The notes under the pieces were generated by a model that was not told the DNA's origin, ran no database searches, and worked only from the letters and a program-made list of their open reading frames with translations. Below are positions 121-44,824 of a DNA stretch of 48,236 nucleotides, piece after piece. The translations under genes were made by a program, and so were the position numbers. Source of the DNA: an uncultured Bacillota bacterium. GTDB taxonomy: Bacteria; Bacillota; Clostridia; Christensenellales; UBA1242. The stretch lies in contig CASFPO010000010.1 in the NCBI GenBank assembly GCA_949296805.1, positions 1 to 48,236 on the forward strand. Direction: 5' to 3'. The stretch's first letter is position 1. Each line of letters starts with the position of its first letter.

Positions 121-153
121 AAAAAAATAACAATTTAATTAAAAATTGTTATT
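121..153 (-). terminator. Intrinsic terminator of the amidoligase cassette
   Basis: An 11-bp inverted repeat (AATAACAATTT and its complement, 126-153) overlaps the stop codon at 149-151. In the minus direction it is followed by seven T. It ends the leftmost minus-strand transcript. Confidence 0.8.
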
Positions 154-787
154 CATAATAAGGGACTCTAAAATCGTAACTCGATTTATAGGAATAATAA
201 CTATCATAATGATAATAGGAATAATTAGAAAAATAGCAACCGTCTTTTTTGTAAAAATCTCCTATTGTATAAACATTATTATCTTTGTCTAAAAAGGCGA
301 ACTTTGAGTTGGTAGTGTTTTTAATTAATGTTTTAATATCTTGTCTTTTATAAAAATCACTAGATAGGTTATAAATTGGAGTAATAAAGTCTTTAATAAA
401 CTCTTGTGTATCAGTTAATTTTTCATTTCCATAATTCGCAATAATTCCATTGTGACATATTCCCAGATTTCCCGTGTCACTAATGCTCTTTAATCTTTTA
501 TCACTATTGGAAACAATAAACGGGTGTGTATTTTCTTTAGAATTAGATAGACAAGTACCAATTCTAAAGTGCATAATCAACGGGTTTTTGTATAAATCTA
601 TTTCAGTAGAAAGTCTTTTCAGTCTTTTTTCAAACTTATTAAAAGTCATATAACCCTTATTAACATTAACAAGTCCGTTTTTTAGAAACATCAACCCAGC
701 ACCATGTGGGTTATTTTCAAAGCAATTTCTTAATAACTCCATGCTGGGCAGTTTAGTATTTTTCGGTTTAACAACAATAACACACAT
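149..787 (-). CDS. Class II glutamine amidotransferase-like protein
   Basis: A 212-residue N-terminal-nucleophile amidotransferase domain. The start is placed at the ATG followed directly by Cys codon 2, because class II enzymes use an N-terminal Cys once Met is removed and because GGGGGAGA lies about 9 nt upstream; an alternative in-frame start 18 nt upstream would bury that Cys. Family-type motifs are MCVIVV (2-7), HFRIGT (73-78), NTHPF (87-90 region), CHNGIIAN (111-118) and a DTQEF segment. Glutamine hydrolysis to ammonia, or cleavage of gamma-glutamyl amides, is the known chemistry of the fold. The last 29 residues are strikingly Tyr-rich (about 12 Tyr). The gene follows the amidoligase by one base, so the two are translationally linked and probably act on the same product. 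Confidence 0.85.
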   Translation of the reverse strand: MCVIVVKPKNTKLPSMELLRNCFENNPHGAGLMFLKNGLVNVNKGYMTFNKFEKRLKRLSTEIDLYKNPLIMHFRIGTCLSNSKENTHPFIVSNSDKRLKSISDTGNLGICHNGIIANYGNEKLTDTQEFIKDFITPIYNLSSDFYKRQDIKTLIKNTTNSKFAFLDKDNNVYTIGDFYKKDGCYFSNYSYYHYDSYYSYKSSYDFRVPYYE

Positions 788-788
788 T

Positions 789-2057
789 TTAAATATCTCC
801 CCCATTTCCTTTTATATTTTGTTCAAAAAACTTAATGTCGTTATCACTACCAAATGAGTAAATGTTATCTTTAATTTTTTCTAATAAATTGTTATAAGAT
901 TTAAGTAAATCTCCTCTATCGGTTGTAATTTTACTTACATAACTTTGATTTTTAAAGTCGTTATCTTCAAACAAAAACTTATTTTGATAAATTAAGTTGT
1001 AAATATTCTTTATTTTTGCACCATTTTTCAATACGTTTTTCAAATTATTCATGTTAAAATCAATGTTTTTTATAATCAAGTTCAATTCTTTTTTAATAGT
1101 TGTCATATCACTTTCAAGCGCTTTTTCTTTCGCCTTTAGTTCTCGGTCAATATCTTTTGTTAAATCTCTAACCTTTGTGCCGTTTAATATTCCCTTTGAT
1201 TTAACATAACTTTTCAACTCTTTAAAATTATGCAAGTTAACTAATTTATCAAAAGTTATTGTATTAAAGGATAACTCATTAACAGCATAACACATATTGT
1301 AAATCAACTCGACACTAGCAATTATTGTGTCAACGTTGAGTGTACCCCTGAATAATCTGAACTCAAGTGTGTTATCATGTTGCAAGTTCAACACTTGTGT
1401 ATGGTCTTCGTTCTTAATTTCGTTTATCGCTTTAGTTGAACTAAAAAGTTTATCTTTGCTTTTTTGGTCAAGGTGGTAAAACCCGTCACTTAACCATTGA
1501 TTATAATGTCCGCTCCTCCTACGTGCGAACTCTTCAAACTCTTTCTTGTAAAACTCTAATAAAATGAATAACTTGTTTATTTTCTCGTTATCATTTTTAA
1601 TGAAATCCCTGTCAACGTGTATGTGTAGTCCACATCTCATATTGTCATGAGATGTAAAACCTCTTGCTATTAAGTAATCTGCTATTTCTTCGAACTCTTT
1701 TTTGTGTTCTAATAAATAGTTTAAGTCCATAGGTTGCGTTATTATCTCAACCCCGTTTGATAGTGACCCGTCCATCTGAAAGTACAAGTTTAAATGTTGG
1801 TATTTTCTTCTAATTTCATGACAAAGACTATCTGGGTCATATTCTCTTGCCGTGTTCTCTATTTCCCACTCCCAACCGAACGTGAACGGCAAATATTTTT
1901 GTTCTTTTCCATGTAGTGGGAAAACGCCCTCAGTGTCGTTGTAATGGTAATCTTTTATAACGCCATAGTAATCATAACAACTATCACAAAGGAAATTGTG
2001 ACCAAACACAACACCCTCTTTCTTCTTAAATTCTTCTCTACAATTCATACATATCAT
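789..2057 (-). CDS. Amidoligase (COOH-NH2 ligase) with N-terminal zinc finger
   Basis: A 422-residue protein. A four-Cys zinc-binding head (Cys3, Cys6, Cys24, Cys27) precedes a glutamine-synthetase-like amidoligase domain (Amidoligase_2 type). Recognisable motifs are GWEWEIE (61-67), DGSLSNGVEII (96-106), CGLHIHVDR (142-150) and LEFRLFRGTL (231-240), which give the Glu/His/Arg set expected for ATP and metal binding. The region from about 290 to 345 is a Lys/Glu-rich helix. Such enzymes form amide bonds between carboxylates and amines on peptides or small molecules; the substrate here is unknown. It lies between a small unknown gene and the class II amidotransferase in one minus-strand operon. 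The ribosome binding site is AAAAGGGAGTG. Confidence 0.9.
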   Translation of the reverse strand: MICMNCREEFKKKEGVVFGHNFLCDSCYDYYGVIKDYHYNDTEGVFPLHGKEQKYLPFTFGWEWEIENTAREYDPDSLCHEIRRKYQHLNLYFQMDGSLSNGVEIITQPMDLNYLLEHKKEFEEIADYLIARGFTSHDNMRCGLHIHVDRDFIKNDNEKINKLFILLEFYKKEFEEFARRRSGHYNQWLSDGFYHLDQKSKDKLFSSTKAINEIKNEDHTQVLNLQHDNTLEFRLFRGTLNVDTIIASVELIYNMCYAVNELSFNTITFDKLVNLHNFKELKSYVKSKGILNGTKVRDLTKDIDRELKAKEKALESDMTTIKKELNLIIKNIDFNMNNLKNVLKNGAKIKNIYNLIYQNKFLFEDNDFKNQSYVSKITTDRGDLLKSYNNLLEKIKDNIYSFGSDNDIKFFEQNIKGNGGDI

Positions 2058-2134
2058 ATTTTTTTCACTCCCTTTTACTATTAATTATATGTATTTTACA
2101 AGTCATAATCACAAAATGTATTCAACAACAATTT

Positions 2135-2383
2135 TTATTTTGTGCTTTCGTATATTATGTCATTAAGTTTTTCTTCACACTCTTTGAGTGTTCCAGAACA
2201 AACGTTTTCCCAGAAACTAATATCTAATCCGTACCACTCTTTAATTGTCTTATCTCCATTTAAGCAGTTATTCTTGTCCATTTTGTTCAACTGGTATTTG
2301 TCCGGGTATTCTTTCGTGTTGTATAATTCATATTCTACTCCGTCGACGTTATAAGTCTTATAATATAATTTTATGTTTCGCAT
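2135..2383 (-). CDS. Small unknown protein, first gene of amidoligase operon
   Basis: 82 residues, rich in Tyr, Lys and Asn, with no recognised domain, signal peptide or membrane segment. The start has a good site (AAGGAGATGCG) and lies just downstream of the consensus promoter at 2410-2438, so it is the first product of the transcript that also encodes the amidoligase and amidotransferase. A 77-base gap separates it from the amidoligase. By position it could be a substrate, adaptor or regulator for the cassette, but nothing in its sequence decides this. Confidence 0.7.
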   Translation of the reverse strand: MRNIKLYYKTYNVDGVEYELYNTKEYPDKYQLNKMDKNNCLNGDKTIKEWYGLDISFWENVCSGTLKECEEKLNDIIYESTK

Positions 2384-2409: not shown

Positions 2410-2438
2410 ATTATAATATATATATTGTTATATGTCAA
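2410..2438 (-). promoter_or_regulatory. Consensus promoter for amidoligase operon
   Basis: On the minus strand, TTGACA (2433-2438) and TATAAT (2410-2415) are separated by exactly 17 nt. Both boxes match the vegetative sigma consensus perfectly. Confidence 0.9.
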
Positions 2439-2500: not shown

Positions 2501-2529
2501 TTGACACTTATATTTTTATTTGGTAAAAT
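2501..2529 (+). promoter_or_regulatory. Promoter of rightward early operon
   Basis: TTGACA (2501-2506), a 17-nt spacer and TAAAAT (2524-2529). The first gene begins at 2557 after a strong GGAAGGGGG site. It is back to back with the leftward promoter at 2410-2438. Confidence 0.88.
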
Positions 2530-5039: not shown

Positions 5040-5344
5040 TGAATTTTTTTACAATAGTTGGAAGATTATGCAAAGAACCTAGACAAATAGAAAATACACG
5101 ATATTTTGAAATTGTTGTCGCAGTAAATAGACAATTTAGAAATGAATACGGGCTTTATGAAACGGACTTTATACCAGTTTTAATTGACAAAACAATGAAT
5201 AATGCTTTCATAGAATATTGTTTTAAGGGAGATATTGTTGCCGTTAAAGGAAGAGTTGAAAAAGAGGCAAACGGAGAACTTAAAATGATTGCCGAAAAAA
5301 TTACGTTTCTAGCAAAAGGAAGTGATAAACAATGCAACAATTAA
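5039..5344 (+). CDS. ssb: SSB-like single-stranded DNA-binding protein
   Basis: 101 residues with the SSB OB-fold pattern: an N-terminal NFFTIVGRLCKEP strand, IENTRYFEIVVAVNRQFRNEYGLYETDFIPVLI, then a GDIVAVKGRVE strand and a closing IAEKITFLAK strand. It stops soon after the OB fold, lacking the long linker and acidic tip of host SSBs that recruit partners. It would coat single-stranded DNA during phage replication or recombination. A second SSB-like protein is encoded at 12712-13083 in the replication module. Confidence 0.85.
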   Translation: MNFFTIVGRLCKEPRQIENTRYFEIVVAVNRQFRNEYGLYETDFIPVLIDKTMNNAFIEYCFKGDIVAVKGRVEKEANGELKMIAEKITFLAKGSDKQCNN

Positions 5345-5595
5345 CTATGCAAGATTTAAAAGAATTAATACAAGATTTAGAAAAAATGAATATTGATTTA
5401 TCTAAAATGCAAGTATATTTAGGAAATGACGAAGAATTGAACGGGGTGCATAATGCTTGGAATATAACATTATTAGACAAAAATTATAAAGGAAATGACA
5501 AAGACATAAAAGAAGATATGGACTATATTATTGACATGATAAATCAAGATTATTCAAACATTGAGTTAAAAGACAAAGGGATTTTAATATCATAA
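5332..5595 (+). CDS. Conserved small phage protein
   Basis: 87 residues, overlapping the SSB-like gene by 13 nt and using a binding site (AAAGGAAGTG) inside it. The segment LSKMQVYLGNDEELNGVHNAWNI resembles a family of uncharacterised early phage proteins with a P/V-Y-x-G-D-E-E-L-N-G core. Function unknown. Confidence 0.75.
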   Translation: MQQLTMQDLKELIQDLEKMNIDLSKMQVYLGNDEELNGVHNAWNITLLDKNYKGNDKDIKEDMDYIIDMINQDYSNIELKDKGILIS

Positions 5596-5863: not shown

Positions 5864-6184
5864 ATGATTTTAAATAACTGGAACATTGAAGAAATGACTG
5901 GGTATAAACCTATTACGACATTTTATTTAGATTTTTCTATTGCTGATAACTTTGGAATAAAGGCAATAAAAGATACATATAATAGAGCATTTAAGGGTTG
6001 GCGAGATAATTATAAATACTTAACTGAACTTGTCATGGTGCTTAATTGGAAAAGTTGGGAACACTATGAAAAAGACTATGAAAAATGCAAATTGTATTGT
6101 GAGTTATTTGAAAAATTAAATGACTATTGCTATGAAAATCTAAAAGGCGAAGAATTAAGTTATTTTTTTGAAACAACTGATTAA
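5864..6184 (+). CDS. Unknown early protein, last gene of rightward operon
   Basis: 106 residues, aromatic-rich (many Tyr and Trp), with no recognised motif. The binding site AAAAGGAGTG lies in the end of the preceding gene. The terminator hairpin at 6172-6199 overlaps its stop codon. The sequence LDFSIADNFGIKAIKDTYNRAFKGWRDNYKYLTEL resembles uncharacterised phage proteins but I cannot assign a role. Confidence 0.72.
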   Translation: MILNNWNIEEMTGYKPITTFYLDFSIADNFGIKAIKDTYNRAFKGWRDNYKYLTELVMVLNWKSWEHYEKDYEKCKLYCELFEKLNDYCYENLKGEELSYFFETTD

Positions 6185-6654: not shown

Positions 6655-6696
6655 AAAGAAAAAAGCAAGAGTGATTACCTTAATGCTCTTGCTTTT
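6655..6696 (-). terminator. Terminator between convergent genes
   Basis: An 11-bp stem (AAAAGCAAGAG with CTCTTGCTTTT) and a 14-base loop. In the minus direction it is followed by a T-rich run. It overlaps the end of the basic-protein gene and may also stop the plus-strand transcript from 6448-6654. The loop core GTGATTACCTT recurs in the hairpin at 42572-42606. Confidence 0.7.
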
Positions 6697-6914
6697 GATT
6701 TCACAGGATTTCTTTTTCTGTACTCACGAGCGTACTTTCTTTTGTATTTTCTATATTTTTCATTGTTTGCATAATATTCTCTTTGTTCTTCTGCGTATTT
6801 TTTTCTATTTCGTTTGTGTTTAGCAGTTTCTCTCGCTATTTTTTCTTCACGGTATTTTTTATTGGTTCTATAATATTTTCTACTAGCCCTTTTTTCAGCA
6901 GTTGTTGAAGCCAT
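6675..6914 (-). CDS. Very basic small protein with YYxxNxKYRxxK repeats
   Basis: 79 residues, dominated by Lys, Arg and Tyr. Two similar units, YYRTNKKYREEK (about 14-25) and YYANNEKYRKYK (about 47-58), are followed by REYRKRNPVKSKARALR. The composition suggests nucleic acid binding. Similar MASTTAEKRAS-type proteins occur as uncharacterised genes in Gram-positive phages. It has its own promoter and a GGAGAGTG site, and one copy of the TAGTTCTAGTTTCT repeat lies upstream of that promoter. Confidence 0.75.
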   Translation of the reverse strand: MASTTAEKRASRKYYRTNKKYREEKIARETAKHKRNRKKYAEEQREYYANNEKYRKYKRKYAREYRKRNPVKSKARALR

Positions 6915-10114: not shown

Positions 10115-11011
10115 TTAAATTTCCTTCTTAATTACTAAGTCAATAAGGGTTTCATATCTAGCAATTTGTTTGTTTGCTATTCTTAATTTTTCGTTTAAGT
10201 CAAGAATTATTTTTTCATAATTAATGTCTTGTGATAAATCTGTTGTTGGTTTTATGTCGCTATCAATAGTTTCAATGTTTTTTTCTTCAATTTCTCCCAT
10301 TTCTTCGATTTCTTCTGCTTTTTCTGTTTCTTCAAAATCTTTAGTTATTTCTTCAACATTTTCTTCTATCTTTTCGACACTTTCCGTTGTTTCTTCAATT
10401 ATTTGTTCTTGTTTTTTTGACTCATTAGTTTTGTCAACAAATTCTTTTAAAACCAACAATGTTTTATCATAAGCAGGGTATTTTTTTAGTAATCTTCCAA
10501 CAGTACAAGCACTTACTCTGATATTTTGTGACAACTGACTTTTTGAGATTTTATTTTCATTCATAAATCCTTCTAAATCAAAGTTTTTATACCATTCATT
10601 TATATCGTTTGAACTGTTTATTCTTATATTAAATTCATCATTTAAGTAGTAATATAACTTTGTCAAATTTTCTTTTGTTATACCATTCAAATTATTTGCC
10701 CACGAACTTACCATGCTTTGTGAAAACCCTAGTTCTTTTGCAAATTGTTTTTGGTTTGCAAAACCGAATTTTTTTATTTCTTTCTTTAAATCCAAATTTT
10801 TAAACCAAAGTTTCATTTCTGCCTCTTTAAGTTTTCTTTCGCTAGGAGTAAGTTTGTTTATTTTGCTTAAATACTCATCAACCCTACTTTTTGGCACTTC
10901 CCTTTGCCCATTCTCAACCTCTTTTATAACTTCTTCTTTCACATTTAGTTCTTTCGCTAATTCACTTCTTGTCAACCCTGCTTTAATTCTTTTCTTTTCC
11001 CATATACTCAT
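10115..11011 (-). CDS. XRE-type regulator with three HTH domains
   Basis: 298 residues. Three helix-turn-helix units follow one another: about 8-55 (GLTRSELAKELNVKEEVIKEVENG), 84-128 (NQKQFAKELGFSQSMVSSWANN) and 155-195 (ISKSQLSQNIRVSACTVGRLLKK). Then come an extremely acidic linker (about 200-258, Glu-rich) and a short C-terminal coiled coil. The first is a classical XRE domain; the others are more diverged. No repressor peptidase domain (LexA-like Ser/Lys) is present, so it is not an SOS-cleavable CI. It is the best candidate for a master regulator or partition-type DNA binder in the lysogeny module. The ATG is preferred over an upstream GTG that lies in the GGAAGTG site. Confidence 0.8.
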   Translation of the reverse strand: MSIWEKKRIKAGLTRSELAKELNVKEEVIKEVENGQREVPKSRVDEYLSKINKLTPSERKLKEAEMKLWFKNLDLKKEIKKFGFANQKQFAKELGFSQSMVSSWANNLNGITKENLTKLYYYLNDEFNIRINSSNDINEWYKNFDLEGFMNENKISKSQLSQNIRVSACTVGRLLKKYPAYDKTLLVLKEFVDKTNESKKQEQIIEETTESVEKIEENVEEITKDFEETEKAEEIEEMGEIEEKNIETIDSDIKPTTDLSQDINYEKIILDLNEKLRIANKQIARYETLIDLVIKKEI

Positions 11012-11041
11012 TTTTTTCACTTCCTTTTCTTCTAATTAGGC

Positions 11042-11528: not shown

Positions 11529-12413
11529 TTAATTAAACATAGCATTAGAAACTATGTATTCTCCTTCATTTTCTTTTCTAGTTATTTCATTGATATATCT
11601 AGTAGTTGTATTTTGAGATTTATGATGTAATATTTGCTGTATAGAATGAGTATCCAACCCATTTTGATACATTATAGTCGCACTTGTTCTTCTTGTGCTA
11701 TGTAGACTAAAACTATCGCTATCGTATCCAAATCGTTTAAAAATCTTCTTTATTTCACTCCTAACACTTGTAGTGGTTAGCCTACCATTTTTATTGTTGT
11801 TGCTCGTTGATATAAATATGCTACCTGTAGTCCTATTTCCAATATAATTTTTAATATCATTTAAAACATCATTAGAAAGTTTTACATATTCGTCCTTTTC
11901 ATCATGTTTTTTACATTGTATCCATAAGACAACCTCTCCATTATGGATTTTAATATCTTCGATGTCTGCCCTAACTAATTCAATACCTCTTATTCCAGTT
12001 GTTATTAGTAAACTAAATAAACACTTTTCTCTCAAATCAGTTAAACCATTGTATATTTTTTTTACTTCTTCTAATGATAAAACCTGCTTTTTAGGAGTGT
12101 TATTATATTTAGCACCCTTTATATCTACTGAAATATCTTCATACAAGTTATTTATCTTTAAGTATCTAAATAATCTTCTAATCGCTATCATATAAGTATT
12201 AACAGTATTACTGGAATAATTTGCTCTTAAATTATCTCTATAAGAAATTAAATCTTCTCTAGTTGGATTTTCTATGTTGTTTTCCTTTAAATATTTTGAA
12301 AAAGATAGTATGCCAACTTTATAAGCATTAAGAGTTTTTAAATCAACGTCTAAATACTTAAAAAAGTTATTACTAAATGTATCTAACTCAAATTTTTTCA
12401 CTTCTTCTATCAT
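11529..12413 (-). CDS. int: Tyrosine integrase
   Basis: 294 residues. An N-terminal SAM-like core-binding domain (about 5-95) precedes the catalytic domain. Full active-site set: Arg142 (TTGIRGIEL), a Lys in the beta-hairpin (QCKKHDEKD), His238 and Arg241 (LHSTRRT), His263/264 (ILHHKS) and the nucleophile Tyr273 (TTTRYI). It catalyses site-specific integration and excision, making the phage temperate. It is compact, with no AP2-like arm-binding domain. It is the first gene downstream of the promoter at 12450-12478. An attP core could not be identified without the host sequence. Confidence 0.95.
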   Translation of the reverse strand: MIEEVKKFELDTFSNNFFKYLDVDLKTLNAYKVGILSFSKYLKENNIENPTREDLISYRDNLRANYSSNTVNTYMIAIRRLFRYLKINNLYEDISVDIKGAKYNNTPKKQVLSLEEVKKIYNGLTDLREKCLFSLLITTGIRGIELVRADIEDIKIHNGEVVLWIQCKKHDEKDEYVKLSNDVLNDIKNYIGNRTTGSIFISTSNNNKNGRLTTTSVRSEIKKIFKRFGYDSDSFSLHSTRRTSATIMYQNGLDTHSIQQILHHKSQNTTTRYINEITRKENEGEYIVSNAMFN

Positions 12414-15256: not shown

Positions 15257-16156
15257 CTATACCTCATCTAAACTTATTTTTTTAGTTTTAGCAATTTTTT
15301 CTGATTTCTTTTCTATCACATCGACATCCACAATTTCGTTTTCGTCATATTCAGGACTATCAACATACTCGTAGTCTCCATTTTCTTTAATAACAGCAGT
15401 GTCTTTTGTATATGCGTCTTGCATTTCTATACTCATTATTCCCCATTTTGATATTAATTGTCTTAATATTGTTTTAAATGCCATAGCGTCAAAGTCTTTG
15501 TACCAAAAACTGCTAAATTTCCACATATCTTTTTCTGGTATTTGCCCTGCTTGTAATTTCCTATAATCAGACAAATTAAACGCTTTTGAATATGTGTCTG
15601 CATGAATTTCCATTTCCTCTTTTGACATGTATATTTTTTTAGTAAAACCATTTAGTAATTCAAAATATCCTAAATATCCTATAGTTTTCTTTAAAATTCT
15701 TTCTGCTTCGTTTTCTATAAAGGAAAATTCAAATTTACCAGTTTCTTTATTTCTTCCTAAAAGTTCGCCTTCTTTTATTTCGATGACATCAATATCTTTG
15801 TATTGCCCACTTCTAATGGCTAATTGTATGTAACCTTTATAACCCATTTGAAAGACTGCTTCTTTTTCACCTGTTTTATTATTTGAGTATGGCACTAAAT
15901 AATATAACCCCAATTGTGGACTTGGGCTAAGATTTAATGCTTCACCCAATAACGCACCAGTTAAAATTGTTTTTGGCGAACACTCTTGCAAAGAAGGATT
16001 AATTGCCACAGCACTACTAATACTTGCTACAAATCTTTTGGCTCTTTCGCTATCGCCTAATGTATTATTAATTAAATTTTTATACATATCACTTTGAATT
16101 GCAACACTAAACTTTGGCTTTGTTGCATTTATAGAATTTTGCAATTGATTATTCAC
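15257..16156 (-). CDS. recT: RecT-family single-strand annealing recombinase
   Basis: 299 residues from a GTG start 8 nt after AAAGGAG. It has the RecT family pattern: ERAKRFVASISSAVAINPSLQECSPKTILTGALLGEALNLSPSPQLGLYYLVPY, then QMGYKGYIQLAIRSGQYKDIDVIEI and a FKTILRQLISKWGIMSIEMQDA segment. The C-terminus is acidic then Lys-rich and probably disordered. It anneals complementary single strands in phage recombination and end repair. Its neighbours DUF1351, SSB-like and MBL hydrolase form the usual recombination cluster. The first 7 nt of the gene overlap the preceding one. Confidence 0.93.
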   Translation of the reverse strand: MNNQLQNSINATKPKFSVAIQSDMYKNLINNTLGDSERAKRFVASISSAVAINPSLQECSPKTILTGALLGEALNLSPSPQLGLYYLVPYSNNKTGEKEAVFQMGYKGYIQLAIRSGQYKDIDVIEIKEGELLGRNKETGKFEFSFIENEAERILKKTIGYLGYFELLNGFTKKIYMSKEEMEIHADTYSKAFNLSDYRKLQAGQIPEKDMWKFSSFWYKDFDAMAFKTILRQLISKWGIMSIEMQDAYTKDTAVIKENGDYEYVDSPEYDENEIVDVDVIEKKSEKIAKTKKISLDEV

Positions 16157-16361
16157 TCTTTTCACTCCTTTCATCATATTCTAATATATCTCTAACCATT
16201 TTAAAAATGATGTCTAAATCAATATCTTTTTGATTTTTTAGTATTTGTTTAACCAATTTTGCAATTAAACATAAATGTTCCATAGTATGACTGTTTTTGC
16301 AATCATATTTGTATATAAAATCATCTGTATTATTTTCATAACTTGTTTCAATTTTTATCAT
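16149..16361 (-). CDS. Unknown small protein upstream of RecT
   Basis: 70 residues with a helical C-terminal half (HLCLIAKLVKQILKNQKDIDLDIIFKMVRDILEYDERSEKSE). No domain recognised. It lies between DUF1351 and RecT with an AAAGGAGATAAATATG start context. Confidence 0.7.
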   Translation of the reverse strand: MIKIETSYENNTDDFIYKYDCKNSHTMEHLCLIAKLVKQILKNQKDIDLDIIFKMVRDILEYDERSEKSE

Positions 16362-17254: not shown

Positions 17255-17477
17255 AACCTTCCTCCATACAAAATTCACAAATGTTATCAATTCTAGCAAG
17301 TTCACTATTCCCCTTAAATTCATTTGAGTAAATTTGTTTGCAATTAGAACAAATAAATGAATTTTCGCTTTCAACAACTTCTGCTATCAATTTTATTTGT
17401 TCTTCATATTTGTCACAGGGTAAGTCTTTTAACTCTTTCTTTTTACTTTCATATTTATTCCAAATATTCCCACCCAT
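17244..17477 (-). CDS. Small zinc-finger protein
   Basis: 77 residues. Two CxxC pairs (FICSNCKQIY and NICEFCMEE) spaced about 24 residues apart form a treble-clef/zinc-ribbon type site in the C-terminal half. The N-terminal half is helical (KYESKKKELKDLPCDKYEEQIKLI). It overlaps the helicase gene by 23 bases and DUF1351 by 11. Possibly a helicase- or DNA-associated accessory factor. Confidence 0.75.
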   Translation of the reverse strand: MGGNIWNKYESKKKELKDLPCDKYEEQIKLIAEVVESENSFICSNCKQIYSNEFKGNSELARIDNICEFCMEEGYGR

Positions 17478-18777
17478 ACTTTTTTATTTCTCCTTTCTTG
17501 TTTAATAATCTTTTACTTTCTATTTCAAAATACAACCCAGCAAATGCGTCTTGGACACCATATTCTCTATTTTTGCATATTTCTATGACATTAGAGTATT
17601 GATAAATGGGGTTATCGTCGTGCCATTTAAACATTTCCTTAGTTTGTCTTTCAAAATCTCTATTAACTCTGTGCATAATGAACACATTGTCGGCTATATT
17701 AGTCAAATCACTACTACCAGAAATATCTATCTTCCTTAAAAATGCTGTCGATTTTCTAGGGTGGCAAACAAAATGTATATGTATATTTAATCTTTTTGCC
17801 ATTTCGCTTAATTCTGTCATGAATTTAGTTTGAATGTCATATTTTTGTTCACCATATTGTGCCAAATTCATACTCATTAGATTATCTAAAATTACAACTT
17901 TTATATCATTTCTTAACACACAACTTTCAATGCTTTGTAATATTTCCTTTGCGTCGTTTCCGTAAGAATTATCATAGACAAATAACTTATCATTTAGCCA
18001 TTTATATATTTTTTGTTTATGCACATTTGGTACATAAAAATAATTTTTCTCACTATTATACACTAAATTATTTTTTCCACAAGCATTTAATACTATCCAG
18101 TTTATTAATCTTTTGTCAGTAAGTTCTCCACTAAAAATTAAAACTTTGTAATTTTGAGAAATGCTTTCTAAAGCAATTTGATTTAGATACGTTGACTTTG
18201 CCGAAGCATTTGACCCACTCCATACACTTAACTCTCCAAGTATAAAACCCTTTATTGAATTGTCTAAATCATTACAACCTGACCTTATAAAAGTTTTTTC
18301 TTCATAAGTTAAGTCGATATCATTAATTGTCTTTATTTTGTTGTTCTGCGTATCAGAAATATTTATTAGCGACATTTTTTTCACTTTGTTTTCAAAATCC
18401 TCGTAAGAAATATTATTTTCGCTTAATTTTTTATCTAGTTCTTTTATGTAGTCAATTTTAAATTTTTTTAATATAATGTCTTGGCTTAACTTAAATTGTC
18501 TTTCCCAGTCGTTTAAATAATACATGTCGTTAGTGATAATATCTATGTATTCTTCAATTGGAAACGACGGTGTAATTCCTACCATATATGCTATATCAAC
18601 AACTTTTGTATCTTTATAAGACCTAATCATTGTTTCTAATATTTTTGAATTTGTTTTAGAGTATAAATAATTTGGTTTAATTTGCAAAAAATTTATTAAT
18701 TCATTTTTTCTAAAAAGTAAAGAAATTAGTTCTCTTTCTATTAGTGTCCTTTCTAAGTCAATGTCATTTGCACTCAT
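17455..18777 (-). CDS. DnaB-type replicative helicase
   Basis: 440 residues. A helical N-terminal domain (about 1-140) is followed by a RecA-type motor. The Walker A region reads SGSNASAKST (187-196), with Ala193 where Gly is expected before Lys194. Walker B is VVILDNLMSM, followed by the HFVCHPRKS motif and a GSSDLTNIADNVFIMHR segment typical of DnaB-family motors. It unwinds DNA at the phage fork, probably recruited by the replisome organizer encoded immediately upstream (2 bases away). No separate loader of the DnaC/DnaI type is evident. Confidence 0.88.
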   Translation of the reverse strand: MSANDIDLERTLIERELISLLFRKNELINFLQIKPNYLYSKTNSKILETMIRSYKDTKVVDIAYMVGITPSFPIEEYIDIITNDMYYLNDWERQFKLSQDIILKKFKIDYIKELDKKLSENNISYEDFENKVKKMSLINISDTQNNKIKTINDIDLTYEEKTFIRSGCNDLDNSIKGFILGELSVWSGSNASAKSTYLNQIALESISQNYKVLIFSGELTDKRLINWIVLNACGKNNLVYNSEKNYFYVPNVHKQKIYKWLNDKLFVYDNSYGNDAKEILQSIESCVLRNDIKVVILDNLMSMNLAQYGEQKYDIQTKFMTELSEMAKRLNIHIHFVCHPRKSTAFLRKIDISGSSDLTNIADNVFIMHRVNRDFERQTKEMFKWHDDNPIYQYSNVIEICKNREYGVQDAFAGLYFEIESKRLLNKKGEIKKYGWEYLE

Positions 18778-19883: not shown

Positions 19884-20825
19884 CTATTTAATATAAATCT
19901 TTTCTCCTTCGTTTAGTTTTATCTTATATTTTGCTGTTTCTTTTATGTCGAAAAATTGTTTATAAGTTTCATTTTCAATTAATTCTTGTTGTAAATCTTT
20001 TATTTCTTCTTTTAATTCTTCGTTTTGCTTTGTTAATAAAGTGTTTTCATCTATTAGTTCTTGGTTTTTCTTCGTTAGTTCTTCCAATTTAGCATTTGTT
20101 TCATTATTGGTTTCTTGCTTTTCTTCTTTCAACAAAACTTCTAAATATGTATTAGCCTTATCCTGTGCTATCCATTGTCCTTCTGCTATCTTATACCACG
20201 TGTATTCACCATTCACTTTTGTTTCAGTGAAGTTATAGATGTTTCCTGTGTCAACTTGTCCTAATATAGTTTGATTTGTTCCAGCACCTGCACGAACATT
20301 TACATATTTAAGTGTCTTTACTTGGTCTTTACTTATATCTCTTACTACACTTGGTGTTATTGGTGTGTAGTATTTAACTATACTTTTATCGTCGTTGTGA
20401 ACGATTTGTCCATCAAAAACATAAGTTAGTGGTAATGGGTCAACTCTATAATTCGTTCCAGTTCCACCTTTGTATATTTCAAAATGAAGGTGGTTGCCCA
20501 GACTTTCGCCTGTCGTACCCATTGTTGCTATTCTTTGCCCCTGTTTAACTTTATCCCCCACTTTAACTAATAAACTACCTGTTTTTAAATGTGCATATAA
20601 TGTGTATTCGTTTCCACCATGATTTATTTTAATAAAGTTTCCCCAACTCTTGCCTGTTGTGTCATTATCTTTGGTAGAATATACTGTTCCGTCTGCACTG
20701 GCATATATTGGCTGATTTTTTCCTTCACAATATTTACTATTCCAACCTAAATCAAGTCCATAATGGCTACCACTTTTGAATTTTTGTGTTATAGCAATAT
20801 AATTCACTGGGTATCTGTGTATCAT
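19884..20825 (-). CDS. Endolysin: M23 peptidase plus SH3b
   Basis: 313 residues. Residues 15-135 are an M23 metallopeptidase with zinc ligands His21 and Asp25 (HYGLD), catalytic His79 (YAHL) and HLH at 112-114; it cuts cross-bridge peptides in peptidoglycan. Residues about 165-228 (LKYVNVRAGAGTNQTILGQVDTGNIYNF...WYKIAEGQWIA) are an SH3b cell-wall-binding domain. The C-terminus from about 235 is a coiled coil rich in Glu and Lys, unusual for an endolysin, that could oligomerise it. There is no signal peptide, so export depends on the holin encoded immediately upstream (one-base overlap). Confidence 0.92.
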   Translation of the reverse strand: MIHRYPVNYIAITQKFKSGSHYGLDLGWNSKYCEGKNQPIYASADGTVYSTKDNDTTGKSWGNFIKINHGGNEYTLYAHLKTGSLLVKVGDKVKQGQRIATMGTTGESLGNHLHFEIYKGGTGTNYRVDPLPLTYVFDGQIVHNDDKSIVKYYTPITPSVVRDISKDQVKTLKYVNVRAGAGTNQTILGQVDTGNIYNFTETKVNGEYTWYKIAEGQWIAQDKANTYLEVLLKEEKQETNNETNAKLEELTKKNQELIDENTLLTKQNEELKEEIKDLQQELIENETYKQFFDIKETAKYKIKLNEGEKIYIK

Positions 20826-21145
20826 TATTCATCGTTCCTTTCAAGTTCAATCACTTTTTCCATTGAACTAAATGACTTGAATATTTTATCTTCAAATGCT
20901 TTATATACTAAATCAGCACCTATCCATGTAATTAATCCAGCCCATAAACAATTTAGCCAACTTAAATCACTAAAGCATTTAGAAAATAATGTTCCAATTA
21001 TCAATGAAATTCCTAAACTTACATAAGTTATTGTTGTTTTATTTGTTATCATGCTTTCTTTTATTTTTTGAACTAATGCTGTGGTTATAATACTACTACC
21101 AATGGCAACGATTAAAACATTTTTTAATAAATCAAAATCTAACAT
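20825..21145 (-). CDS. Holin
   Basis: 106 residues. Three hydrophobic segments (about 8-25, 38-56 and 64-80) and a charged C-terminus ending SSMEKVIELERNDE. Size, topology and position directly before the endolysin identify it as the pore-forming lysis timer of the inner membrane. The binding site is AGGAGGAAAAT. Confidence 0.85.
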   Translation of the reverse strand: MLDFDLLKNVLIVAIGSSIITTALVQKIKESMITNKTTITYVSLGISLIIGTLFSKCFSDLSWLNCLWAGLITWIGADLVYKAFEDKIFKSFSSMEKVIELERNDE

Positions 21146-21260: not shown

Positions 21261-21336
21261 TGGAGGTAGCGATGAGATTTGAACTCATGATATTGGTTTT
21301 GCAGACCAACTTCTTAAACCACTTGAATACGCTACC
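21261..21336 (-). tRNA. tRNA-Cys (anticodon GCA)
   Basis: A 76-nt cloverleaf with CCA encoded. The acceptor stem is GGTAGCG with CGCTACC, seven perfect pairs. The anticodon arm is TTGGT-CTGCAAA-ACCAA, so the anticodon is GCA. The T arm is ATGAG-TTCAAAT-CTCAT, and the D loop contains GTGG. The discriminator base is U73, the identity base for Cys. It lies in the late region, downstream of Cys-rich structural genes and before a terminator. Confidence 0.95.
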
Positions 21337-37201: not shown

Positions 37202-37777
37202 TTATAGTTTTTCAAATTCTTCTGGGTGTTCATTCATAAACTTTTCTTGTTCCTCAGCAGTCATTTCTGAGAACTTTTCAAAAGTCATAACATCCTCGTT
37301 TTGCTTAACATTTGATAAAGTAGGCGAAATATCCAAAGTAGATAAGTCCTCTTTTGTTTTTTTCGCAACGCTTTCTTTTAAACTAGAAAGAGTTTCTTTC
37401 ATCTTTGTTGCTAATGCAATAGTAACATCAGTGTCCTCAACAACTAATTGAGAAATTAATTTATCATCTAAATCTTCTCCAGCAAGTATTTCTTTTGCCT
37501 TTGCAGTATTTACGATTATTCTTGATTGAGCCAAATTTTTGTCTATTTCTTTTTGCTTTTCAGCGATTTTTTCTTGTTCAGACATATTTGCCTTCTCTAT
37601 TTCGTCGAGTTTGCTTTTAATTTCATCATAGTCGTTTTTCTTTTCCAATTCTCCTTTTAGTAAATTAATTTCATCATCTTTCTTCTTTGATATAGAATGA
37701 AATGTTGATAGGAAATTTGTTATTTGTTCCTCTGTTGCCCCTTCACCTAAAATTTTTCTTGCTTCATCTCTTGTCAT
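37202..37777 (-). CDS. Capsid scaffold protein
   Basis: 191 residues. Almost entirely acidic helix and coiled coil, with an MTRDEARKILGEGATEEQITNFL head and a C-terminal TFEKFSEMTAEEQEKFMNEHPEEFEKL that probably binds capsid protein. This composition is standard for siphovirus scaffolds (GP20/DUF4355 kind). It is expressed just before the major capsid protein. Confidence 0.85.
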   Translation of the reverse strand: MTRDEARKILGEGATEEQITNFLSTFHSISKKKDDEINLLKGELEKKNDYDEIKSKLDEIEKANMSEQEKIAEKQKEIDKNLAQSRIIVNTAKAKEILAGEDLDDKLISQLVVEDTDVTIALATKMKETLSSLKESVAKKTKEDLSTLDISPTLSNVKQNEDVMTFEKFSEMTAEEQEKFMNEHPEEFEKL

Positions 37778-37881: not shown

Positions 37882-37956
37882 TGGTCAAGGCTAATGGATT
37901 TGCACCACTTTCTTTGGGTTTGGAGCCCAATGTTTTTCTAATTAAACTAAGCCAAG
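37882..37956 (-). tRNA. Degenerate tRNA-Trp-like element (anticodon CCA)
   Basis: A 75-nt cloverleaf can be drawn on the minus strand. The anticodon arm is TTGGG-CTCCAAA-CCCAA (anticodon CCA), the T arm AGTGG-TGCAAAT-CCATT and the D arm GTTT-AATTAGAA-AAAC, and 3' CCA is encoded. The acceptor stem (CTTGGCT with AGCCTTG) has two adjacent U-U mismatches at 2:71 and 3:70. The D loop lacks GG, T55 is G, and the discriminator is A instead of the G usual for bacterial tRNA-Trp. It is a decayed tRNA, an unusual tRNA, or a tRNA-like processing element in the portal-scaffold gap. Confidence 0.6.
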
Positions 37957-44203: not shown

Positions 44204-44824
44204 TTATTCTTCCCTATCAAAATGTTCCTTTAATTTGCCGTTTTTCATTCTTACGTATTTAGTAATAATATTTTTATAATTTACTATAAAACCTTCAACA
44301 TTCCTATTAACCTTGGTACAATATTTTTCATATATACTATCTAAATGTTCTTTATTAGGTAAGACATTTATTTCTGCTACTTCAGGTACTATTCCTATAC
44401 ATTTAGGTAATTCTTGACTTTGAAAAGGATATATAAATAAACTATGTTCGTAAATCAAATTATATAAATTAAAATCATCATCAATATTTGCTTTTGCAAA
44501 CATATACCATCTCTTATCAAATTCATCAACGGAATATTTTAAACACCCCATTCCTAACCATTCTCCACATATAGCACTTCCTTCGTATAAATCATTTAAA
44601 AAATCTTTATTATCATTTAACCATTGATATAATCCCTTATACAATTTATCTTTAACTTCTTCTAATTCGGTTATTTTAAATATATTACTTCTTTGAGCAA
44701 TATATATTTCTTCATTTTTCTTAAAAAATACTAAATTACTACCGTCTAATTTTTCAGTAATATATATTTTATCTCCTCTACAACTAACTCTTTCAGTTTT
44801 AGGGTATATTTCTTTTTTTATCAT
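44204..44824 (-). CDS. RNA ligase (nucleotidyltransferase superfamily)
   Basis: 206 residues. The adenylation motif EKLDGSN has nucleophile Lys25. Later motifs are CGEWLGMG (motif III-like), NVEGFIVNY (motif IV) and TKYVRMKNGK (motif V). The enzyme would adenylate and seal 5'-phosphate and 3'-OH RNA ends, as T4 Rnl2-type ligases do, for instance on tRNA cut by host anticodon nucleases. It is compact, lacking an extended C-terminal domain, and no polynucleotide kinase gene is seen beside it. Its start is overlapped by 26 bases by the upstream small gene. Confidence 0.88.
   Translation of the reverse strand: MIKKEIYPKTERVSCRGDKIYITEKLDGSNLVFFKKNEEIYIAQRSNIFKITELEEVKDKLYKGLYQWLNDNKDFLNDLYEGSAICGEWLGMGCLKYSVDEFDKRWYMFAKANIDDDFNLYNLIYEHSLFIYPFQSQELPKCIGIVPEVAEINVLPNKEHLDSIYEKYCTKVNRNVEGFIVNYKNIITKYVRMKNGKLKEHFDREE

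Follow-up and report, generated by a model that had tools for sequence, protein, structure and literature searches.

Which reaction is served by two adjacent genes at one end of a temperate phage genome from an uncultured Bacillota bacterium, and do the two products act together? The stretch of DNA analysed here (the window) is an entire contig, C10, of 48,236 bases and 28.6% G+C, from a source bin of 1.12 Mb that is 97% complete; its gene content identifies it as a temperate tailed phage. The first-pass annotation had described a phage-borne cassette of an amidoligase, able to make amide bonds, and a class II glutamine amidotransferase able either to feed or to undo them. We found that the two genes belong to a conserved two-enzyme phage module which is real and widespread, and that the cassette of the window is a minimal, zinc-headed form of an amidoligase-glutaminase linkage already described. 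Our best explanation, to which we assign a probability of about 0.47, is that the pair is predicted to form one two-subunit glutamine-dependent amidotransferase.

The larger gene encodes a member of the Amidoligase_2 family, with a predicted ATP-dependent amide-forming activity. The match to PF12224 reached 29.7 bits against a cut-off of 22 (E 7.5e-7) and the match to phrog_16683 was at 3e-39. Residues G61, E63, E65, D96, G102, E104, G143 and H145 were invariant in a 70-row ligase alignment, all rows of which, except the window, had been picked by the GxExE motif. Across 174 ligase-glutaminase pairs, D96 was retained in 173, E104 and H145 in 172 each, E232 in 170 and R234 in 169; H147 (155/174) and T230 (149/174) were kept less. 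The presence of G61-E63-E65 and of glutaminase M1-C2 in all 174 pairs is partly by construction, since the rows were picked by those motifs; ligases that had not been picked carried GxExE in 235 of 240 cases. The AlphaFold2 model of the ligase, with a core mostly at pLDDT 87-98 and a lower stretch at residues 181-220, supported a glutamine-synthetase/GCS fold: a Foldseek search placed YbdK (1r8g) first (4.4e-5), followed by glutamine synthetase, Dop and PafA, with TM-scores of about 0.3.

The smaller gene encodes a protein that begins with Met1-Cys2 and that Pfam fails to recognise, GATase_4 reaching 10.5 bits against a cut-off of 23 (E 0.28). GATase_4 was matched at E 1e-3 by 19 of 78 aligned family members, and the NCBIfam match, to a GlmS subfamily at 2.9e-4, was far under its cut-off. 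Pfam also misses some of the ligases (L050 and L299). A profile made from 11 diverse homologues of the glutaminase found PurF (1ao0, 3e-9) and GlmS chains; against this, the nearer-homologue profiles A3 and A5 match no solved chain at 1e-3 (A3: PurF at 0.033). The AlphaFold2 model (pLDDT 93) had its best Foldseek hits among GlmS/GFAT structures, including the GlmS glutaminase domain 1xff (3.9e-6, TMq about 0.5), and supported an N-terminal-nucleophile (Ntn) glutaminase fold.

The glutamine site was well conserved. Residues G31, H73, R75, N113, G114 and D126 were identical in all 174 paired glutaminases, T78 was found in 173 and H88 in 170; Met1-Cys2 was an entry condition for these pairs, and among unpicked model hits 220 of 230 started with M/V/L-Cys at the domain start. 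The spacing of Arg, Thr and His (75-78-88) is the same as in GlmS, where we take these residues to be 73, 76 and 86. Three genome glutaminases, from bacterial bins (L246, L266 and L279), started without Cys; the flanks of all three lacked an amidoligase, and they are possibly decayed copies. The amidoligase with its expected motifs, as first annotated, was thus borne out by PF12224 and by the residues kept in most pairs, and the Cys2 and glutamine-site residues were retained on aligning homologues. The family check held in part: the ligase matched its Pfam family, whereas the glutaminase stayed under the Pfam cut-off and drew its support from the homologue profile and the model.

The association of the two genes was surveyed in viral contigs and in genomes. 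For the glutaminase, the broad query alignment A1 was too divergent for scanning and the five closer sequences of alignment A3 worked; the single query P0002 found nothing in the viral contigs. Relatives were present in 281 of 316 pattern-matched IMG/VR stretches and the best 80 of the 281 were taken; the amidoligase set comprised the best 80 of 321 relatives, and certain contigs occur in more than one of the four sets.

Of the 80 viral loci that the glutaminase search retrieved, 78 had an amidoligase; one of the two exceptions lay at a contig end (L099) and the other 1.4 kb from one (L111). The amidoligase was upstream of the glutaminase in all 77 same-strand viral pairs, with a median gap of 40 bases, a gap of at most 100 bases in 42 pairs and no gene of at least 55 aa between the partners in 56. 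The same order was seen in 206 of 211 same-strand pairs of all four sets, a joined reading frame (L250, see below) being one of the five exceptions. By gene models, 70 of the 80 viral loci held one gene of each kind, seven held two ligases and one glutaminase, one held two of each and two held the glutaminase only. An amidoligase lay within 1.5 kb in 64/80 glutaminase loci versus 0/25 control loci. The controls came from an order-wide A1 search of 396 genomes, which mostly hit frames of about 600 aa, called GlmS-type by length and by the family's GlmS match.

Conversely, 69 of the 80 loci fetched by the amidoligase had the glutaminase. Among 70 genome loci, 55 had both genes, 14 the glutaminase only and one the amidoligase only. 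The distance matrices of ligase and glutaminase were correlated (r 0.60, reached by 0/500 permutations), a result that co-inheritance alone could explain. The window glutaminase also found seven phage records; six were examined and each had an amidoligase-model hit nearby, five of the six being themselves part of that model. Pfam placed three of these ligases over the cut-off (L003, L005 and L006), one under it (L004) and gave no match for another (L007). The linkage of amidoligases with glutamine amidotransferases, mentioned in the first-pass annotation, is thereby strongly supported; PMC10580990, PMC5498523 and PMC11318856 cite Iyer et al. 2009 as having described it.

A few loci deserve separate mention. 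A 681-aa frame carrying both domains (L250:4717-6762) was not used as proof of a fusion: its Cys is internal and its linker looks out of frame, possibly through an assembly frameshift. Two archaeal-labelled loci with the pair (L272 and L281) look by eye like bacterial podoviruses in archaeal bins. Two others have flanks without amidoligase: L253, which looks plasmid-like by eye from its protein starts, and L278, where a stand-alone Met-Cys glutaminase (L278:3022-3681) sits among apparent housekeeping genes in a record titled Methanobrevibacter sp. 87.7. Methanobrevibacter-type archaea carry pseudomurein. In Clostridioides phage AR1086-1 (L002:4668-6857) an amidoligase was present, the model found no glutaminase, an RlaP-type RNA repair gene came after the amidoligase and KptA lay about 4 kb upstream; relatives occur on three C. 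difficile plasmid records.

The neighbours of the pair were analysed for further enzymes in the viral set, 140 of 164 close same-strand genes of 70-450 aa being scanned. No recurrent third enzyme was found among them. The families seen were SSB (3), DUF3846 (2), helix-turn-helix proteins and single cases of ArdA, ArdC-N, Lar and ADP-ribosylglycohydrolase. A cyclotransferase-type motif was present in 3/220 scored glutaminases, two confirmed by Pfam and one by motif only. In the window, the operon contains besides the pair a single 82-aa reading frame without match; ATP-grasp, cyclotransferase and second ligase are absent from it. The cassette had no PADLOC match. An RNA ligase of the window, together with the RlaP and KptA genes close to the amidoligase of the C. 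difficile phage, suggested a connection with RNA repair, but this was given up, no such family recurring among the 140 scanned neighbours.

The amidotransferase explanation draws on the folds, the active-site conservation, the ordered viral pairing and the lack of a recurrent third enzyme found in this comparison. The glutaminase is taken as the ammonia-supplying subunit because a glutaminase with an intact site and an N-terminal Cys lies nearly always behind the ligase in viral loci, with no recurrent third enzyme. The small Ntn subunit would bind L-glutamine and use its N-terminal Cys to release ammonia; the glutamine-synthetase-fold subunit would activate a carboxylate with ATP and form an amide using that ammonia; and the fast-changing N-terminal head of the ligase may help in the choice of target. 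The pair would be expressed by the temperate phage from a promoter of its own, at a site away from the structural genes, and would modify a molecule of the host or of the phage, be it a cell-wall precursor, a protein or a nucleic acid; this would probably benefit the phage against rivals or defences. Ammonia transfer between the subunits, targeting by the head and expression are steps that we infer. A precedent exists in MurT-GatD, where glutaminase and ligase work as a single amidotransferase; the folds differ, being Mur-ligase-type and class I glutaminase. As in the proposed pair, a ligase and a glutaminase are there joined in one enzyme (PMC3267633).

Several points weigh against this explanation. 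The A3 query consisted of five glutaminases which all came from pair-bearing loci, a possible bias towards paired forms. Enzymes of the YafJ/EgtC/DUG3 type can hydrolyse gamma-glutamyl bonds, and to our knowledge no characterised enzyme with a glutamine-synthetase fold receives its ammonia from a class II glutaminase. The HPF-HNG stretch of a family member (L004) aligns with the GATase-type chain 3mdn, and a cyclotransferase-type domain is found on three glutaminases. No glutaminase was present in 11/80 viral amidoligase loci, L137-L143 among them. In 14/70 genome loci the glutaminase had no flanking amidoligase; some of these lie at contig ends (L213, L245 and L265), several others have ample flank, so that the tie to the ligase is looser there, and the three without Cys (L246, L266 and L279) are among the 14. 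These glutaminase-only loci weaken the dependency argument, slightly lowering the case for feeding and slightly raising that for gamma-glutamyl editing. Finally, PMC5498523 counts glutaminases of this kind as degradation genes.

According to the editing alternative, the glutaminase would act on gamma-glutamyl groups as a hydrolase or transferase, editing or reversing the amidoligase product in a gamma-glutamylation cycle. The intact glutamine-type pocket agrees with it, as do the YafJ-like stretch aligned with 3mdn, the cyclotransferase-type fusion in three loci and the degradation role stated in PMC5498523. A lone make-and-undo pair would however be futile, yet exactly one gene of each kind occurs in 70 of 80 viral loci with no recurrent third enzyme, and the cyclotransferase fusion is rare (3 of 220). 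We consider this alternative unlikely. A role in undoing amide bonds is possible and is rated below feeding because in most viral loci the pair stands in fixed order with no recurrent third enzyme.

A further proposal concerns the substrate and can hold together with the amidotransferase explanation: the pair would alter peptidoglycan precursors, by an amide or a gamma-glutamyl linkage, and so block superinfection or lytic enzymes. It has been made repeatedly for the richer cassettes of phiEco32, LUZ24 and RIO-1 (PMC5498523, PMC11945000, PMC10580990, PMC11318856), the superinfection or cell-wall idea being repeated in PMC11318856 and PMC11945000. The predicted peptidoglycan modification cassette is attributed elsewhere to Iyer 2009 and Hardies 2013; PMC5498523 describes it with seven genes in RIO1-like phages and lists phiEco32, LUZ24, PaP3 and others, and a table of PMC3890496 gives ligase, glutaminase, ATP-grasp and AIG2 for UFV-P2. 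Like the window, the phiEco32/LUZ24/RIO-1/PSA-HP1 cassette combines an amidoligase with a glutamine amidotransferase, and it sits in a region that is early or linked to replication (PMC3890496, PMC5498523); unlike the window operon, with its two enzymes and zinc-type head, it also encodes an ATP-grasp enzyme, a cyclotransferase and another ligase. In Stenotrophomonas and Rhizobium isolate phages, too, the cassette is larger and includes a gene annotated as ATP-grasp or D-Ala-D-Ala-ligase type.

The immediate expression of the predicted peptidoglycan modification genes of phage HP1 (PMC7082346) favours the cell-wall proposal, and so does the host bin. This bin has one cluster with three Mur-ligase-type domains and gave no match when searched for MurT_C, so the host probably makes peptidoglycan and may lack the MurT/GatD amidation pair. 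Against the proposal, the published versions carry no substrate experiment in the cited passages, the window operon lacks the additional enzymes of the richer cassettes, the 140 neighbours scanned include no recurrent gene of the cell wall, and tandem zinc-type heads would seem superfluous for small precursors. On balance we hold it to be doubtful. In addition, a role in nitrogen metabolism is put forward in PMC10945688, on the basis of growth experiments in which the phage had genes of this kind. No biochemical test of the enzymes appears in the cited passages, and searches of an open-licence library listed no paper whose title announces one.

The cultured mycobacteriophage Marvin has the same two-gene, zinc-headed form as the window. 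Its genes gp105 and gp106 (JF704100) are adjacent and in the same order: gp105 (L303:2560-3921) is an amidoligase by the family model (E 1.4e-61) with four CxxC motifs and gp106 a Met-Cys glutaminase (E 6.9e-36). Phage and host differ from those of the window, and the annotation of either gene is that of a glutamine amidotransferase domain protein. For Marvin it has been suggested, as quoted in PMC10580990, that a small secondary metabolite or antimetabolite is made; the 140 neighbours scanned show no further recurrent family for biosynthesis, export or resistance, and we find this role quite unlikely. The two-gene form is also found in Methylophilales phage MEP402, whose glutaminase gene begins inside the amidoligase gene. 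Its ligase is recognised by the family model, with PF12224 at 19.6 bits, under the cut-off; the longer C-terminus of the glutaminase and the marine host distinguish it from the window. Such genes occur in MEP401, MEP402 and more than 30 marine viral genomes (PMC10580990).

The pair is thus common in phages, yet Pfam largely misses its glutaminase side and, in the passages cited, the published substrate is still guesswork. The minimal form is free of the ambiguity of seven-gene clusters and offers a small target for biochemistry, and in Marvin the question could be answered directly. A widespread and poorly annotated module that is directly testable in cultured phages is, for these reasons, of moderate interest.

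The N-terminal head of the amidoligase bears on the nature of the target. In the window its cysteines (C3/C6/C24/C27) are compatible with one putative zinc site. The head of the closest phage relative has C4/C7/H27/C30, read by eye; the automatic alignment leaves its second half unpaired. CxxC motifs precede the core in 127 of 211 paired amidoligases, at least four of them in 85; 80 have none and four were unscored. At 55-70% core identity the heads matched in 109/158 pairs, and heads differ between close cores: L147/L153 and L178/L175/L200 have cores about 60-65% identical, with a CxxC-rich head in the former and a head of similar length without CxxC in the latter. Heads without Cys may be degenerate or zinc-less forms of the same repeat, so our claim is limited to fast-changing heads. 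Zinc-type heads that change so fast are a hint, read from sequence, of a macromolecular target. A broader proposal would see here a new amidotransferase architecture, a glutamine-synthetase-fold ligase supplied by a dedicated class II glutaminase. The fast-changing heads of this ligase, with tandem zinc-type repeats or with none, would steer amidation towards a target that is a protein or a nucleic acid, and the two genes would have spread among phages as a module for counter-defence or host takeover; we judge it improbable.

The cassette was compared with those of related phages. A related large terminase was found in 12 viral contigs and seven of these were searched for the pair. The closest phage found was G441, a contig of 49,455 bases whose terminase shares 80% identity with that of the window. 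Its cassette occupies the same slot, and nearby are homologues of window genes 5864-6184, 5332-5595 and 6675-6914, of the integrase and of the repressor; its ligase is 32-35% and its glutaminase 42-44% identical to those of the window. Neither gene was matched in G442 (52,755 bases, terminase 67%), a record that may be a fragment, or in five shorter terminase-related fragments. In trees of the 174 pairs the window and G441 were not sisters. Nearer to the window were L052 in the glutaminase tree (support 0.82) and L132 in the ligase tree (0.88), both on contigs whose flanks share little with it. The cassette genes therefore appear, from these comparisons, to diverge fast and to move between phages; strict transfer as a unit is not claimed, as the two trees disagree on the nearest relative of the window.

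The operon stands at the left end of the window, divergent from small plus-strand genes (Table 1). Its promoter-like site matches TTGACA-17-TATAAT at all 12 positions; since sites of this kind are, taken together, no commoner than chance would give in a region so rich in A+T (24 found, 20.9 expected), it is this full match that carries the promoter claim. A terminator-like site was not found 3' of the operon. The first gene had no significant family match in library scans and no relative among the reading frames of 241 surveyed loci (phmmer E 0.1), and is outside the conserved module. The positions and lengths of the three genes were confirmed. The first interpretation of the locus therefore stands for its families and motifs, the zinc-type head at the level of sequence, the consensus promoter, the separation from the structural genes and the linkage; its third gene is present in the operon and does not form part of the module. 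Of its candidate roles, modification of DNA, of protein or of the cell surface and an antimetabolite may each still apply.

Table 1. Positions in the window of the cassette, its parts and other phage genes.
Feature	Position	Strand	Basis
Class II (Ntn) glutaminase subunit, 212 aa	149..787	-	Cys2 nucleophile, R75/T78/H88, N113-G114, D126
Amidoligase_2 (glutamine-synthetase/GCS fold) subunit, 422 aa	789..2057	-	Pfam, phrog, predicted structure
Predicted long-helix C-terminal extension of the amidoligase, residues 296-416, partly low confidence	810..1172	-	AlphaFold2
Amidoligase catalytic core	1275..1883	-	GxExE 61-65, DGS 96-98, E104, GxHxH 143-147, R180, N224, TxExR 230-234
N-terminal zinc-type head of the amidoligase (C3xxC6 ... 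C24xxC27)	1977..2051	-	read from sequence
82-aa reading frame, first gene of the operon; cassette found without it elsewhere	2135..2383	-	library scans and locus survey
Sigma-70-type promoter-like site, 12/12	2410..2438	-	TTGACA-17-TATAAT
Divergent promoter-like site, 11/12, 5' of small plus-strand genes	2501..2529	+	
Repressor-like regulator	10115-11020		
Integrase	11529-12413		
RecT	15257-16177		
DnaB-like helicase	17455-18777		
Peptidase-type endolysin	19884-20825		
Holin-like gene	20825-21145		

The window also encodes tail, major head, portal and terminase genes, and an end repeat sought in the contig was not found. The bin yielded no 16S gene. Amidoligase_2 was matched in 1/61 genomes, that of the window itself (30.7 bits in the scan of this genome), and in 0/14 control genomes; the ligase was matched in 2/101 genomes, the window's own included, the other being G047 of the same genus. 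Because the matches are nearly confined to the window's own genome, the pair looks phage-borne and not a host trait.

Elsewhere in the window, the minus strand encodes an RNA ligase at 44204-44824 (PF09414, E 2e-11), with a homologue 75% identical in phage contig G442. Two tRNA genes are on the same strand, tRNA-Cys (GCA) at 21261-21336 and tRNA-Trp (CCA) at 37882-37956, with the tRNA-Trp gene flanked by the portal gene on one side and by the gene at 37202-37777 on the other.

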